Below, piece by piece: positions 125-31,249 of a DNA stretch of 35,111 bases. Below the pieces are notes generated by a model, which saw only the letters and a program-made list of their open reading frames with translations, was not told where the DNA came from and made no database searches. This DNA comes from a virus. The stretch spans positions 1 to 35,111 of the IMG/VR virus record IMGVR_UViG_3300030019_000100; one strand, written 5' to 3'. Made by a program: the position numbers and the translations under genes. The first letter of the stretch is position 1; each line of letters opens with the position of its first letter.

Positions 125-1330
125 TCAGATCTTATTGATAACCTTTTTGTTTATCTTATCTACTCTAGTGAAGTCTTCTTTGACATATCCATCCGTAACA
201 TTATGCGCACTAGCATGATTCAGAGAGAAAGCAACGTCATCCATAGATACCTTGCATTCATTCCTGGCTATACTGGCCCATGAGTGGCGAAAAGAATATG
301 CTGTCATGTAAGGAAGACCACAACGGCTACATATATTCTTAATGCCTACCGACACAGCACGAGAGAAATTCTCTTCCGCAGAATACGTTTCACTAAAATT
401 GAATAGGCGAGTGTTTCCTTTGTATTTTTCAAAGAGTGGTTTTATCATATCCGGAACGCTGATCTCCATATATGCGTTGTTCTTTCTCTCCTTACGCGTT
501 TTCTTTCTATTGTAGCACAGTTTTCCATCTCTGTAGGATTCATTTCTTAGATCATACAGATCGGCCGCATTAATGCCGGCAAGGCATATTATAATCTTTG
601 CTACTTCATATCCTATAATTTCTCTTGCGCTGTCACCATATTGAGAGGACGGAAAAGGCTCTTGCTCAAAGAACTTTCTAATGATAGTGGAATCTTGCCC
701 TCTTTTCTGAGGTACATCTTCACTAGGTATCTTCACCTTTTTGAAAGGCTCGTTTGGCACTCTAATGATGTCGAGGTCATAATCATTGTATTCATCCATT
801 CCACAACGGAATATGTGATGCATGTATGTAGGATACATGTTCTTTGCTCTAGCTGTGCCTGATAGGGATTCAACCCATTCGTTTAAACGCTTTGTGGTAA
901 GTTCCTGAAATAGGATATCCTCCTTTCCGTAGAAGTTGATCAGAGAGTTTAGTGCAGTTCTGTAGTTTCGGGCACTTCTTTCCCGGTCTTCGTTGATCAT
1001 CTTATTGATATGCTGATTTGCGAAAGCGGTAAATGAGAGAGCATTATCTTTATTTTCCAGTATATCGACAATCTCCCCACAACTTAGAAGATCGTAATGC
1101 GGAGTTCTGTTCAGCTTGTTCTTATAATCCTCGATCAGCTTTAGGCATTCGAGCAATATAAAGTTCTCTGTAATCTCATAACTTCCGTTGGACTCTTTCA
1201 CATCATTGATGGAAGCAAGATATAGAGTTTTCACGTATCCGACTTTATGTTGATGTGTGATACGGATGAACACAGGTACAGGTCTTTCAACTATTTTAGT
1301 AGACCTGATACAAATTGTAAAAGTTGCCAT
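125..1330 (-). CDS. int: Tyrosine recombinase (phage integrase)
   Basis: A 401-residue site-specific recombinase expected to integrate and excise the phage at a tRNA-Arg site. The C-terminal catalytic domain shows the HxxR region as YSFRH, the following SLNHAS box, and the nucleophile Tyr in TDGYVKED about 19 residues from the end. The first catalytic Arg region reads LAGINAADLYDL with no Arg at the usual place, and the HxxR His is Tyr. Bacteroidetes integrases such as IntDOT are known to lack Arg I. The ATG at 1330 (MATFTICIRST) was preferred over the upstream ATG at 1369, because family members begin with this beta-strand segment. The stop codon abuts the probable IS end, so the last residues may have been altered by the insertion. 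The gene is transcribed away from the attachment core at 1478. Confidence 0.9.
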   Translation of the reverse strand: MATFTICIRSTKIVERPVPVFIRITHQHKVGYVKTLYLASINDVKESNGSYEITENFILLECLKLIEDYKNKLNRTPHYDLLSCGEIVDILENKDNALSFTAFANQHINKMINEDRERSARNYRTALNSLINFYGKEDILFQELTTKRLNEWVESLSGTARAKNMYPTYMHHIFRCGMDEYNDYDLDIIRVPNEPFKKVKIPSEDVPQKRGQDSTIIRKFFEQEPFPSSQYGDSAREIIGYEVAKIIICLAGINAADLYDLRNESYRDGKLCYNRKKTRKERKNNAYMEISVPDMIKPLFEKYKGNTRLFNFSETYSAEENFSRAVSVGIKNICSRCGLPYMTAYSFRHSWASIARNECKVSMDDVAFSLNHASAHNVTDGYVKEDFTRVDKINKKVINKI

Positions 1331-1423
1331 AGTCAATTTTTTGTAATCTATTTGTAATCCTACCCGCACAAATAGCGTGTTTTTTACTTGTTTTTTTGTA
1401 TCAAAACCGTATAAACACGAAAA

Positions 1424-5923: not shown

Positions 5924-6871
5924 ATGAGTTTAATTCGTAAAAGCAATGAACTAGAAATTCCATCAAACATTAAGATGATGGTTTACGGTCAACCCGGTAT
6001 GGGAAAATCAACATACGCATTGAGTGCTCCAAAACCTCTTCTGTTCGATTTTGACAATGGCGTAAAGAGAATCAACATCGAGCATTTAAAATCAGTAGAC
6101 ACCGTACAAATATCACAATGGGAAGATGTGCAGAGTGTGTTAAGTGAGAATCTAGATTCTTATCAAACTATAGTAGTTGACACTATCGGAAAAATGATGG
6201 ACTACATCATTTCATTTAAATGTGGCAACAGAGCCCCTGCATTAAAAGATTGGAATGGAATCAATCAGGAATTTTCAAATTTCGTTAGAAACATTTCTAA
6301 TTTGAATAAGCACATAGTATTTGTGGCACACAGGGACACGAGAAAAGAGGGTGATGATACGGTGTTTATACCATCGCTAAGAGAAAAGTCGTATAACTCA
6401 ATTGTAACAGAGCTTGACTTATTGGGGTACATTGAAGCAAGAACCGAAAATGGACGCTCTCGTAGAACGATTACTTTCGACCCTACTGCAAGAAACGATG
6501 GTAAGAATACTTGCAATTTACCGTCTGTAATGGAAATACCTACGATTATTGATGCAAAGGGAAACCCAACGCACAAGAATACAGCTATTCAGGATTATGT
6601 TATCAATCCTTATCTTTCTATGCTCTCTGCAAAGAAAGAAGAAATTGCTAAATACGACAAAGTCATTAGTGAGATAAAAGAAGATATCACTCTTATTACA
6701 GATGCTCAATCGGCAAATGACTTTATCAGCAGAATTGATCAATTTGAACACGTAGGAAGCTCGAAACAAATGGCGGGGAAACTGCTTTCAGTGAAAGCCA
6801 AGTCCTTAAATCTGATCCTTAACAAAGAGAAGAAGTACGAAGAGAAACAATTAGAGCCGAGTTTATTATGA
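5924..6871 (+). CDS. Sak4-like/AAA_24 phage recombination ATPase
   Basis: 315 residues. A RecA-like nucleotide-binding core has Walker A GQPGMGKST at 22-30, the strand LLFDFDNG, and a Walker B-like TIVVDTIGK at 82-90, followed by a helical tail. This arrangement is typical of AAA_24 / Sak4 proteins, ATP-dependent single-strand annealing or recombination mediators in phages. Next to it are DUF1351, a PD-(D/E)XK exonuclease and a NinB-like gene, forming a homologous recombination cassette. The stop overlaps the next start by ATGA. A plain hypothetical ATP-binding protein remains possible. Confidence 0.75.
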   Translation: MSLIRKSNELEIPSNIKMMVYGQPGMGKSTYALSAPKPLLFDFDNGVKRINIEHLKSVDTVQISQWEDVQSVLSENLDSYQTIVVDTIGKMMDYIISFKCGNRAPALKDWNGINQEFSNFVRNISNLNKHIVFVAHRDTRKEGDDTVFIPSLREKSYNSIVTELDLLGYIEARTENGRSRRTITFDPTARNDGKNTCNLPSVMEIPTIIDAKGNPTHKNTAIQDYVINPYLSMLSAKKEEIAKYDKVISEIKEDITLITDAQSANDFISRIDQFEHVGSSKQMAGKLLSVKAKSLNLILNKEKKYEEKQLEPSLL

Positions 6872-20785: not shown

Positions 20786-21349
20786 ATGGATTTCAAATTA
20801 ATAAACGAACTAGCAAAAGAGGTTCACAAAAATGCTGTTGTAAAAGGATTTTGTGAGAACACGCCGAGTGAAGAACACTTTCTGTGTTTAGTAGTATCAG
20901 AACTAATGGAAGCTGTGGAAGCGGATAGGAAATGCAATCACGCAGATATGGATTTTTTCAACAGAGTTATGAGTGTCTATATTCCAGAAATTGGTTCTGA
21001 AGAACTTTATTTTAAAAGATGCTTTGATGAGTATGTTAAAGACACGGTTGAAGATGAATTGAGTGATGCATTTATTCGGCTCCTAGACTTAGCAGGAGCA
21101 AAAGAATATGTTCTTGAAGGTGGTTTTATTTTTAATGAAGTCGCCAGTGAAAACTCTTTCACAGAAAATATATATCTCATTACACAAGGGACTGTATGCG
21201 GCAGTTATTCCGTAACTGGCCGTATTCAGTATCCCATTCTAAATATAATGAAACTGGCTGAAATAATCGGATTTAACCTTGAATGGCACGTGCGGCAGAA
21301 GATGCGATACAACGCACTTCGTGAATACAAACACGGAAAGGCGTATTAG
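20786..21349 (+). CDS. MazG-like nucleotide pyrophosphohydrolase
   Basis: 187 residues. All-alpha NTP-PPase features: the metal-binding ExxE helix SELMEAVEADRK (38-49), the second VEDELSDAFIRLLDLAG helix, and the C-terminal LEWHVRQKMRYNALREYKHGKAY. These enzymes hydrolyse NTPs or dNTPs, or (p)ppGpp-related nucleotides, and are common in phages. Here it neighbours PP-loop and ASCH genes. It ends with a natural TAG two bases before the next gene. Confidence 0.75.
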   Translation: MDFKLINELAKEVHKNAVVKGFCENTPSEEHFLCLVVSELMEAVEADRKCNHADMDFFNRVMSVYIPEIGSEELYFKRCFDEYVKDTVEDELSDAFIRLLDLAGAKEYVLEGGFIFNEVASENSFTENIYLITQGTVCGSYSVTGRIQYPILNIMKLAEIIGFNLEWHVRQKMRYNALREYKHGKAY

Positions 21350-24000: not shown

Positions 24001-24381
24001 ATGTCAGTAAACAAAGTTATCCTAATTGGGAATGTGGGCAAAGACCCGGAAGTAAAAAGGCTCGAATCAGGGGTCACAGTAGCAAGTGTTACACTAGCCG
24101 TTGGTGAGCGCGGATATAAGCTAAAGAATGGAACAGATGTACCAGAACGAACGGACTGGTTTAATATCATCATGTGGAAAGGCTTAGCCGAAATTGCGGA
24201 GAAATACGTAAAGAAAGGAGATAAGCTCTATGTAGAGGGAAAGATACGTATTAGATCGTATGCCGATAAAGCAGGCGTACAGCATTACATAACTGAAATC
24301 TATGCAGAGAAAATAGAACTCCTCACAAAGAAAGATGGCGTGCAAGAAAGTCATTCAGCAAACAACGATTTGCCGTTTTGA
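24001..24381 (+). CDS. ssb: Single-stranded DNA-binding protein
   Basis: 126 residues. An OB-fold N-terminus (MSVNKVILIGNVGKDPEVKRL, WFNIIMWKGLAEIAEKYVKKGDKLYVEGK) and the acidic partner-binding tail ending in NNDLPF identify SSB. It coats ssDNA in replication and recombination; the tail would recruit partners such as the NinB-like protein. It is about three quarters the length of a chromosomal SSB, normal for phage. Confidence 0.95.
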   Translation: MSVNKVILIGNVGKDPEVKRLESGVTVASVTLAVGERGYKLKNGTDVPERTDWFNIIMWKGLAEIAEKYVKKGDKLYVEGKIRIRSYADKAGVQHYITEIYAEKIELLTKKDGVQESHSANNDLPF

Positions 24382-24383
24382 TT

Positions 24384-24899
24384 ATGAAAAAAAAGGAGCC
24401 GGCACTACCAATACAGACTCCCTTAAAAGGTTATTGCAAAGATACTAATAATCTTTTAAATAGCTATTATATGTTTTCAGAAATTTCAGAACTAAAATCT
24501 ATCCGTGAACAAAAAAGTAGAATCTCGGAAAGGGAAAGGGAGTTATCAGCTCCAATTCTTCATGATGTAGAATTGATAAAGACTATTTGGACATGGTTCA
24601 GAGAAATACAAGACGAAAGAGATTGCCCATCAAGGAGTGGGGGAACACAGCAAAGAAAGATGTTTATTTTCATCATTCTTTTTCTGTATTCGCCAAGCGT
24701 GCTAGCCGGGGGAAGAATACCCAACGGCCTAAGAGAAAGTATCGCTATGGCCATTGATTGGAAAGATCGAACGTTTATCTCACATAATATTGAGAGTGTG
24801 GTATTTCTGTACCAAAATTATAAAGACTTCCGTTCAGATATTGACTATCTTTACATCGAAATTGAATCTCGTCTTCGGGGTCAAGGGCTAATCAAATGA
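24384..24899 (+). CDS. Hypothetical protein, last gene of early operon
   Basis: 171 residues from the ATG at 24384. A helical N-terminus, then RKMFIFIILFLYSPSVLAGGRIPNGLRESIAMAI, resembling an Arg-flanked regulatory helix rather than a true membrane span, and a C-terminal VVFLYQNYKDFRSDIDYLY. A similar 'FLYSP..LAG' arrangement is familiar from Bacteroides phage proteins, but I cannot name it. Followed immediately by a terminator. Confidence 0.5.
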   Translation: MKKKEPALPIQTPLKGYCKDTNNLLNSYYMFSEISELKSIREQKSRISERERELSAPILHDVELIKTIWTWFREIQDERDCPSRSGGTQQRKMFIFIILFLYSPSVLAGGRIPNGLRESIAMAIDWKDRTFISHNIESVVFLYQNYKDFRSDIDYLYIEIESRLRGQGLIK

Positions 24900-25437: not shown

Positions 25438-25712
25438 TTGCTTATTTTTTCGAATATCTCATCTAGGGTCTTATTCGATGTAGGTGCAAACGTTTGCACC
25501 TTTGGATGTAAACCACGTTCCTCTTCGTCAGGGTTATTTGACATGATGCTAGAAACCATTTTCGTGCGAGCTAAAAGATCATAAGCCGCATCAGCAACAT
25601 TTAAAACTTCTTTTTCATCTTCAGAAAAAGTATCGGCATAATCTCTACTATTTTGAAGAGAGACTATCAACTCTGATAAAGAGTTCATGGCATCATTTAA
25701 TTTTTTATTCAT
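25434..25712 (-). CDS. Hypothetical helical protein with leader hairpin
   Basis: 92 residues, helical, acidic (DTFSEDEKEVLNVADAAYDLL). Not recognised. Its start is preceded by the hairpin leader 25719-25737, almost identical to the one before the plus-strand gene at 28633. Confidence 0.5.
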   Translation of the reverse strand: MNKKLNDAMNSLSELIVSLQNSRDYADTFSEDEKEVLNVADAAYDLLARTKMVSSIMSNNPDEEERGLHPKVQTFAPTSNKTLDEIFEKISK

Positions 25713-25718
25713 ATTTTT

Positions 25719-25737
25719 GGCCCGTTATGCCGGTAGC
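25719..25737 (-). promoter_or_regulatory. Shared leader hairpin, copy A
   Basis: On the minus strand GCTACCGGCATAACGGGCC is followed by an A-run and the ATG at 25712. It folds as CCG-GCATAA-CGG. The copy at 28608 differs at very few positions and stands at the same distance from its ATG. Confidence 0.6.
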
Positions 25738-25752
25738 GCAGCAGTTAGTTAT

Positions 25753-25965
25753 TTAGATTTCAAAAGTGAAATGTTCAGGGTATTTTTTAGCCGCTTGTCT
25801 AAAAGTCATCACCTCTGCTTTGTCGTAATAATACTCAAAATTTCTTTTATCAGCGGTCTTTTTAGTGGCCGCTACATCATAATTTACGATGCTATTAGAA
25901 TCTATTACGAATACGATGTATTTCGCATTTGATCCATTTTTGTGATATACAGATAAATCTTTCAT
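25753..25965 (-). CDS. Small hypothetical protein
   Basis: 70 residues. YIVFVIDSNSIVNYDVAATKKTADKRNFEYYYDKAEVMTFRQAAKKYPEHF is alpha-beta and contains no known motif. Member of the minus-strand accessory block. Confidence 0.5.
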   Translation of the reverse strand: MKDLSVYHKNGSNAKYIVFVIDSNSIVNYDVAATKKTADKRNFEYYYDKAEVMTFRQAAKKYPEHFTFEI

Positions 25966-27899: not shown

Positions 27900-27902
27900 T
27901 CC

Positions 27903-27920
27903 GGTAGCCTTATGGCTACC
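27903..27920 (+). promoter_or_regulatory. Hairpin before the SprT-like gene
   Basis: GGTAGCC-TTAT-GGCTACC is a perfect 7-bp stem with a 4-nt loop, followed by an A-rich leader to the ATG at 27936. It contains an ATG (27912) in the loop and stem, which is therefore an unlikely start. It resembles the other GGTAG/CTACC leader stems in this module. Confidence 0.5.
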
Positions 27921-27935
27921 ACAAAATATACGATT

Positions 27936-28382
27936 ATGACAGTTTACGAAAAATCAAACAGTATTGAAAAGGTTGCATTAAGCAGATTTTCAAAGAAAGA
28001 ATATCAATCTTTGCTTACTACCTGCGAAAGCATAAAGAATAGGCAGAAAGCAGCGCAAATAATCTGTGACTATCTTTCAGATAAGTTTCACATATCACAT
28101 ACAAAAGTGAATGTAGTAAATAGATCACAGCCACATAGTACTAGTTATTCAGGTAGATTAAGAAGTAAAACTTTGGGCACTTATACAGTTCAAACAGAAG
28201 TGATAACGATGTATAATTTGACAGCTATCAAAAAGCAACCTGTGTCAATCAAAACATTTGCAGGTACTTTACTTCACGAGTTTATGCACCATTACGATAT
28301 GTAGCACTTGAAATTGGGTAATTCACTTCACACAGCAGGATTTTATAAAAGAATATCAGATTTAGAAAGTAAATTAAACTAA
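27936..28382 (+). pseudogene. SprT-like zinc metalloprotease gene with in-frame TAG
   Basis: From ATG 27936 the frame runs 122 codons to a TAG at 28302-28304 and then, in the same frame, 25 more codons to TAA at 28380-28382. The first part ends with LLHEFMHHYDM, an HExxH zinc motif. The part after the TAG, HLKLGNSLHTAGFYKRISDLESKLN, is the expected SprT-like continuation, where the His of LHTAGFY usually supplies the third zinc ligand. So the family's coding sequence is split by one amber codon. Either the gene is a recent nonsense mutant or the codon is read through. The basic N-terminal region (FSKKEYQSLLTTC...) is normal. SprT-like proteases act on DNA-protein crosslinks in the Spartan branch; in phages the role is unknown. 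Confidence 0.7.
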
Positions 28383-28393
28383 AAAAAATAATT

Positions 28394-28591
28394 ATGATTA
28401 AATTGGTAAAATTTCAAATGGTTAATATAGATGTTAATAATGATATCTATATAAATACGCAGCTGATTACAAGTATTTATTGTGATTCAAATCCTGATAA
28501 TACTATTATAGAATCAGGCGCGGACAATACAGCTTGTGTAATTGGATCGGTTGAAACAATTGTGAAAATGATTCAAAACTGTTATAGATAA
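28394..28591 (+). CDS. Small hypothetical protein
   Basis: 65 residues, beta-rich, MIKLVKFQMVNIDVNNDIYINTQLITSIYCD..., not recognised. Ten or so bases after the SprT-like frame. Confidence 0.5.
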   Translation: MIKLVKFQMVNIDVNNDIYINTQLITSIYCDSNPDNTIIESGADNTACVIGSVETIVKMIQNCYR

Positions 28592-28607
28592 ATCAATTAA
28601 ACGCTTA

Positions 28608-28625
28608 GCTACCGGCATGACGGGC
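28608..28625 (+). promoter_or_regulatory. Shared leader hairpin, copy B
   Basis: GCTACCGGCATGACGGGC followed by AAAAATT and the ATG at 28633. It folds as CCG-GCATGA-CGG. It is nearly identical in sequence and spacing to copy A before the minus-strand gene ending at 25712. Confidence 0.6.
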
Positions 28626-28632
28626 AAAAATT

Positions 28633-28887
28633 ATGAAAACAAAAAAAATGCCTTTAAATTTTCTAGCAGAGGCTATGTCTGCTGCTAAAAACGAACTTAT
28701 TAACAAGTACGCAGGTACTTGCTGTGTATCAGCTACAGGACAGTACACTGTGTTTTGGCACGATAACAAATGTATTGTCTCGCAAGGCAACCTTAACGGC
28801 AAAATCGAAGCTGATTTTTGCATAGAGTTTGATCTTCGTTACAACGATGGTAGGGCTATTATTCTTTGCCAAAGAATTTTCAACTAA
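28633..28887 (+). CDS. Small hypothetical protein with leader hairpin
   Basis: 84 residues: a helical start (MPLNFLAEAMSAAKNELINKYAG), then beta strands (GQYTVFWHDNKCIVSQGNLNGKIEADFCIEFDLRY). Not recognised. Last gene of the plus accessory block. Confidence 0.5.
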   Translation: MKTKKMPLNFLAEAMSAAKNELINKYAGTCCVSATGQYTVFWHDNKCIVSQGNLNGKIEADFCIEFDLRYNDGRAIILCQRIFN

Positions 28888-29017: not shown

Positions 29018-29090
29018 CGCGGGGTAGAGCAGTGGTCAGCTCGCTACCTTGACTTGGTAGAGGTCTCAGGTTCGAATCCTGATCCCGCAA
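29018..29090 (+). tRNA. tRNA-Val(GAC) with unusual features
   Basis: Cloverleaf: acceptor CGCGGGG/TCCCGCA with a C1-A72 mismatch, D-stem GAGC/GCTC, anticodon stem CTACC/GGTAG with loop TTGACTT (anticodon GAC), T-arm TCAGG-TTCGAAT-CCTGA and discriminator A. CCA is not encoded. The C1-A72 mismatch is a hallmark of initiator tRNAs and position 37 is T rather than a purine, so the molecule may descend from a tRNA-Met or be partly decayed. Confidence 0.8.
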
Positions 29091-29111
29091 CAATTATTCA
29101 AACTAAAAAAA

Positions 29112-29669: not shown

Positions 29670-30335
29670 ATTACAACTGCAAATAATATTATAGACCTCG
29701 TTAGAAGAAATACTAGCGAGGCTATATTGTTTTGCAGCTTGGGAAAAGATTCTCTGGTTCTGCTCGATTTAATGTACCCTAAATTCGATAGAATTGTATG
29801 CGTGTTCATGTACTTTGTAAAAGACCTAGAGCACGTCAATCGATATATAAACTGGGCTAAGGTAAAATACCCAAATATCGAATTTGTTCAAATACCTCAC
29901 TGGAATCTTACCTACATTCTAAAGAGCGGAATGTATTGTGTTCCCAACCCTAAAGTGAAACTTCTGAAGCTTGCCGATGTAGAGAAATCAATGCGTCTAA
30001 AATACGGCATAAACTATGTATTCTACGGCATGAAGAAAGCCGATTCACTCAACAGGCGATTGATGCTAAACACATACGAGAACTACGAGAGTGGCGGCAA
30101 GTGTTATCCTTTGGCCGATTGGACACAAAAGGATATACTCTCTTACATGCGATCATACAAGCTTCCTGAACCGGTCCGATATTCTAAAAAAGCGAGTGGG
30201 GGTATAGGATTCAACATTGAATGCTTCCTTTGGCTCAGAGCCAACTACCCACAGGACCTGAAAAGGATCCTAAAAGTATTCCCTATGTCCGAAAAGATAC
30301 TATTCGACTATGACTATAAACACAATGGAAAATAA
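29670..30335 (+). CDS. PP-loop protein of the PAPS reductase type (copy 2), no standard start
   Basis: Family-like sequence begins ITTANNIIDLVRRNTSEAI and continues FCSLGKDSLVLLDL, with SLGKDS as PP-loop. Later parts NYVFYGMKKADSLNRRLML and YPLADWTQKDILSYMR are typical. The frame is open from a TGA at 29658-29660, but no ATG, GTG or TTG occurs before TTG 29727, which would remove the first helix and most of the first strand. ATT at 29670 is offered as the family-like start but is not canonical. The function, perhaps nucleotide sulfur chemistry, is unknown. Neighbours: ASCH upstream, ParB downstream. Confidence 0.7.
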   Translation: MTTANNIIDLVRRNTSEAILFCSLGKDSLVLLDLMYPKFDRIVCVFMYFVKDLEHVNRYINWAKVKYPNIEFVQIPHWNLTYILKSGMYCVPNPKVKLLKLADVEKSMRLKYGINYVFYGMKKADSLNRRLMLNTYENYESGGKCYPLADWTQKDILSYMRSYKLPEPVRYSKKASGGIGFNIECFLWLRANYPQDLKRILKVFPMSEKILFDYDYKHNGK

Positions 30336-31066: not shown

Positions 31067-31249
31067 ATGATTGCACCGGGAGAATTTGGAGAAGTTATCA
31101 ATACAGTAGATAACCTATTAGGCTCATTGGAAATTCCTATGCCTGCCGAGTTTCATGTAGAACAGATGAAACGTGAATTGAAAGAAGTATCTGATAAACT
31201 AAAACGGATTTACGTTGAGGAAGAAGACGAGAACCCGTGGAATGAATAA
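31067..31249 (+). CDS. Small hypothetical protein
   Basis: 60 residues, acidic, helical (MKRELKEVSDKLKRIYVEEEDENPW). Placed one base after ParB and 5 before the terminase small subunit; may assist packaging. Not recognised. Confidence 0.5.
   Translation: MIAPGEFGEVINTVDNLLGSLEIPMPAEFHVEQMKRELKEVSDKLKRIYVEEEDENPWNE

Follow-up and report, generated by a model that had tools for sequence, protein, structure and literature searches.

A probable recent nonsense mutation in the accessory Wss1/SprT-fold protease gene of a temperate Bacteroidales-type phage

The SprT-like gene at positions 27936-28382 of the window (the whole 35,111-nucleotide stretch of IMG/VR record IMGVR_UViG_3300030019_000100 that was analysed) is probably an accessory Wss1/SprT-fold protease gene with a very recent nonsense mutation, a reading given a probability of roughly 0.7. 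According to this proposal, the phage encodes a small SprT/Wss1-like zinc protease as accessory cargo, and a single substitution would have converted the lysine codon of residue 123 to TAG, either in the strain or in the majority sequence of the sample. Translation would end just after HEFMHHYDM, the histidine H132 and the C-terminal helix would be missing, and the product should be inactive. The loss would be tolerated, probably since the gene is dispensable, and it appears very recent because the gene is otherwise unchanged. A strain-level nonsense variant matters little as a finding when the phage gene it hits is dispensable. It does illustrate why recoding should be proposed for a metagenomic phage with one isolated in-frame stop only after comparison with near-identical contigs.

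The interrupted gene and its intact copies

From the ATG at 27936 on the plus strand, 122 codons lead to a TAG at 28302-28304, and 25 further codons in the same frame lead to a TAA at 28380-28382. The translation of 27936-28382 runs as TLLHEFMHHYDM up to this single in-frame TAG and, without a frameshift, as HLKLGNSLHTAGFYKRISDLESKLN up to the TAA; across the TAG, the frame reads LLHEFMHHYDM, stop, and then the second segment. This bears out the description in the first-pass annotation of one TAG in an otherwise continuous frame. The annotation had also placed the gene start at 27936, and the family favours that ATG, where most homologues start, over the 27912 start of the program-made open reading frame. 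The features of the locus are as follows.

27936-28304, plus strand: truncated SprT-like/Wss1-fold metalloprotease open reading frame (122 residues plus TAG); from the translation, which is the same as in L003 and L004 up to the stop, with the start backed by homologues
28275-28289, plus strand: HEFMH, the HExxH motif for zinc binding and catalysis (residues 114-118); both histidines and the glutamate invariant in 23/23 family members
28302-28304, plus strand: private in-frame TAG, codon 123; a lysine codon in two near-identical contigs
28305-28382, plus strand: untranslated remainder of the gene, with the third-ligand histidine, the last helix (residues 134-147), and the original TAA; from translation, homologues, and the model helix
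28329-28331, plus strand: codon of H132, the third zinc ligand, within SLHTAGF; invariant in 23/23 members
29957, plus strand: second private difference, synonymous (Val), in the PAPS-reductase-like gene at 29727-30335; from the near-identical contigs

An inverted repeat, GGTAGCC-TTAT-GGCTACC, occupies 27900-27921, immediately before the start of the protease gene.

When the first 122 residues were used to search 2.9 million viral contigs, two contigs matched at 100% identity, IMGVR_UViG_3300029995_000083 and 3300029923_000147, the other matches being more distant. These contigs, which come from other metagenomes, differ from the window by 2 mismatches in 10,703 bp and 3 mismatches in 17,144 bp. 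Intact copies of the gene are thereby observed directly: both contigs have lysine at codon 123 and match the window at all other bases of the gene and its flanks, although they may derive from the same study or the same subject and their independence as samples is not demonstrable. A pattern scan of the 2.9 million viral contigs, in which the bases of the codon were left free, matched only these two, both intact. The segment after the TAG had been regarded as the expected family continuation, and its uninterrupted frame in the near-identical contigs and in homologues establishes it as genuine old coding sequence.

Other parts of the window are matched by four more near-identical contigs. Within the ∼30.8 kb that near-identical contigs cover, two differences are private to the window, namely the nonsense change at 28302 and the synonymous change at 29957. 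A stop would arise from ∼5.3% of the single-base changes possible in the window's genes, so it is unremarkable that one of the two private differences is a nonsense change. Other differences are private to other contigs: a missense difference at 31104 to L004 and L019, and a difference at 8947 to L067, where it lies 5 bases from the contig end and looks like a contig-end error.

These comparisons bear on the main rival explanation, in which the stop is a consensus, assembly, or sequencing error and the phage in the sample has an intact gene. Such an error is unlikely, if far from negligible. The stop is private to one record and is one of just two private differences where near-identical contigs overlap, and the likely error in L067 indicates that mistakes of this kind occur in these data. 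However, the second private difference is synonymous, as expected of real strain variation, and base 28302 sits outside homopolymers and repeats. Base 28302 is best taken as a true mutation rather than a consensus error.

Elsewhere in the window, a Sak4-like annealing protein is encoded at 5924-6871. The contigs that match this stretch best come from three other metagenomes and differ from the window by no more than one base over 4.6-11.9 kb, and this near-identity across metagenomes indicates that the phage strain recurs across samples.

Identity of the protease and effect of the stop

The best Pfam match of the protein is SprT-like PF10263, under the gathering cut-off (15.5 versus 25.6 bits for the intact copy). 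PF10263 is matched by four of six alignment members, more than any other family, with all scores below the cut-off and a best E-value among the six of 0.0018. Strict PF10263 membership is not justified, and relatedness rests on motif and fold; the protein shares with SprT-like proteins the HExxH, a third histidine before a C-terminal helix, and small size. No match for the protease was found in PHROGs, in a profile search of PDB sequences, or in a tblastn search of 50,697 phage records with the intact protein. With the PDB profile and phage tblastn searches empty, it was fold comparison alone that linked the protein to Wss1 and SPRTN, which are well known as proteases of DNA-protein crosslinks.

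AlphaFold modelled the intact copy from the six-sequence alignment with a mean pLDDT of 94. In this model, the HEFMH of the intact allele lies in the active-site helix (residues 105-123), and H132, a predicted metal ligand, is followed by helix 134-147, which lies past the stop. The best solved matches of the model are yeast Wss1 and SPRTN, with Foldseek probabilities of 0.97-1.00 for the best Wss1 chains at E-values of just 0.004-0.05. The top five VIA-align matches are all Wss1/SPRTN, with Z scores of 8.3-8.9; for PDB 5xbn, 5ln5, and 6mdx these values extend over 94-106 residues, including both the active-site helix and the third-ligand helix, whereas identity in the aligned part is 17-22%. 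The phage protein also differs in its small size, as 148 residues leave no room for SUMO-, p97-, PCNA-, or ubiquitin-binding regions. Unlike SPRTN with its SprT domain (PMC9240642), its chain ends soon after the third histidine, without room for a second zinc-binding subdomain. Motif and predicted fold mark the intact protein as a compact zinc protease of the Wss1/SprT fold, and it is from the fold alone that a role in clearing proteins from DNA may be suggested.

Wider searches brought together 23 full-length members, consisting of 7 phage loci (with the two near-identical contigs entered once) and 16 genome-assembly loci labelled Prevotella, Prevotellaceae, Capnocytophaga, Clostridia, Planctomycetes, Candidatus Jettenia, Loosdrechtia, and Kerfeldbacteria. 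These counts leave out L018, in which a contig end cuts the match, and L163, which is no clear relative. H114, E115, H118, H119, Y120, D121, L125, H132, G135, F136, and R139 are invariant in all 23 members. Residue 123 is variable (E, Y, H, K, C, T, or N) and is encoded by a sense codon in every member, as the comparison proposed in the first-pass annotation would have it for an interrupted gene. All 23 run on to an HTAGF-type histidine and none ends naturally at HHYD, which disposes of the possibility, raised at the same time, that homologues end at HHYDM.

Among 393 Bacteroidales genomes, one clear homologue was found, without an internal stop; eight more hits, at E about 1e-4, fall within far longer proteins, and the search turned up no prophage version of the region in these genomes. 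Two decayed relatives were also recovered and are counted in favour of gene loss. The first, in a Planctomycetota assembly (L161, 5001-5126), carries a deletion inside the gene together with a changed third-ligand motif, and the second, in a Paludibacteraceae assembly (L162, 1220-1330), retains the C-terminal part alone. A useful by-product is the family itself, a set of small (148 residues intact here), patchily distributed phage and bacterial Wss1/SPRTN-fold proteases below the Pfam cut-off. It spans Bacteroidales-type phages, Prevotella, Capnocytophaga, and Planctomycetes, and its invariant residues and predicted structure are now documented.

The catalytic zinc in such proteases is held by three protein ligands. 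The 122-residue product of the window allele retains HExxH and lacks H132 and helix 134-147, so its zinc site is incomplete, with the TAG at codon 123 preceding the H132 codon. The short product should be inactive because H132 is lost. The earlier zinc-ligand reasoning, which placed the third ligand after the TAG, is thus upheld by an invariant histidine at the expected place.

There is a very slim chance that the 122-residue product is instead a selected truncated form, such as a non-catalytic DNA- or substrate-binding protein, the least probable of the explanations considered. The truncated frame does keep most of the fold (residues 1-122) and has no further changes. However, no relative naturally ends at the truncation point, the truncation drops an invariant motif and the terminal helix that aligns with the solved Wss1/SPRTN structures, and the change is too recent for selection to show. 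Simple loss of the protease through a recent nonsense mutation is the preferred account of the short product.

Read-through and recoding of TAG

Very recent decay and read-through had both been proposed for this stop. The decay half of that proposal is strengthened, in that the stop is the only difference in the gene from the two near-identical contigs, and the read-through half is weakened by the evidence below. In the read-through explanation, programmed leakiness or a suppressor tRNA would yield both truncated and full-length protease from one gene. The intact frame past the stop counts in its favour, and some gut phages do recode UAG, by means of suppressor tRNAs (PMC10879173). Against it, 0/23 homologues have a stop at residue 123, where read-through would predict a conserved one, and the two near-identical contigs have a sense codon within the same flanks. 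Since contigs free of the stop have identical flanks, the TAG context is not shaped around a stop. Read-through of this kind is therefore very improbable. Partial read-through in the host, through a natural amber suppressor for instance, by which one strain would make an inactive truncated and an active full-length protease, is rated just as doubtful.

Wholesale recoding had been considered unlikely on the grounds that TAG is a real stop elsewhere, and this holds. TAG is an ordinary stop at 21349 and 22421, where read-through would add only 12 and 2 residues, respectively, in overlap with the following genes; the gene ending at 21349 has homologues that stop at or near the same place. Recoding was also tried by reading TAG as glutamine, which joined no neighbouring genes besides the protease gene. 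No CUA-anticodon tRNA was found in the 35-kb window, which may be an incomplete record, by ARAGORN, Rfam, or a T-loop motif scan. The window resembles the UAG-recoded gut phages (genetic code 15 with a suppressor tRNA) in being a gut-type phage with an in-frame TAG, but it differs in having a single TAG in a single gene with intact near-identical copies, in using TAG as an ordinary stop, and in the lack of a detectable CUA-anticodon tRNA. No notable repeat that would point to a repeat-based or diversity-generating mechanism is present at the TAG, and a literature search joining SprT-like proteins, phages, and readthrough found no reports. The recent nonsense allele is the reading that fits the sense codons of the relatives.

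Phage context and tRNA-like elements

The window represents a temperate phage, or a fragment of a prophage, of Bacteroidales type, with genes for an integrase, an S24 repressor-type protein, NinG, helicases, a methylase, a terminase, and a portal protein. Related phages have terminases 75-87% identical and keep the backbone of flanking genes. The SprT-like gene is patchy in its presence: it is absent from 27/27 related phage loci that span the interval between homologues of the gene at 24378-24899 and the ASCH/PAPS-reductase genes. L064, a more distant rumen-type contig (terminase 70% identical in its best segment), has a 57% identical protease copy in another place and on the other strand. 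Given its absence from all 27 loci and its different location in L064, the gene is accessory cargo in a variable interval, and it appears from this distribution to be dispensable. A similar 83-base stretch is common to 28589-28671 and 25671-25755 of the window, and 46 bases in its intergenic stretches are common to Bacteroides phage BS-TP2.

Scans of the window for tRNAs yielded anticodons UGU and GAC, a likely 3′ half of a UCU tRNA, and three degenerate tRNA-like elements. The degenerate elements form a plus-strand cluster at 8945-9034, 9133-9227, and about 9313-9382, comprising a likely Ser(GCU)-like element, a Leu-like element whose anticodon arm is broken, and an element in which acceptor and T arms enclose a long hairpin. 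Just the second (9133-9227) is called by ARAGORN, without a proper anticodon, and relatives other than the two near-identical contigs share no more of this element than a core of 20-22 bases. On the minus strand, the 3′ part of a tRNA gene at 1478-1535, with a probable UCU (Arg) anticodon and without a proper D arm, adjoins the integrase gene (125-1369, minus strand) and is probably an attachment site remaining from integration into such a gene.

The element at 29018-29091 on the plus strand is more interesting than the stop and deserves its own examination. ARAGORN calls it tRNA-Val(GAC), yet with C1 opposite A72 and a CCGCAAC end it looks like a modified initiator tRNA. Among 13 distinct sequences of the element, the cloverleaf is paired in 99.6% of cells, and two-sided changes occur in 11 of 20 pairs versus 7.4 for shuffles. 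The anticodon loop TTGACTT and the flanking GG after the loop are invariant, whereas the arms covary. Some relatives have a non-canonical T loop. At 26/26 related loci with the element (within L022-L061), the start of an ASCH-like open reading frame lies at a fixed distance, 95-106 bases downstream of its first base. Instead of decoding, the element could act as a tRNA mimic with a regulatory or decoy role.
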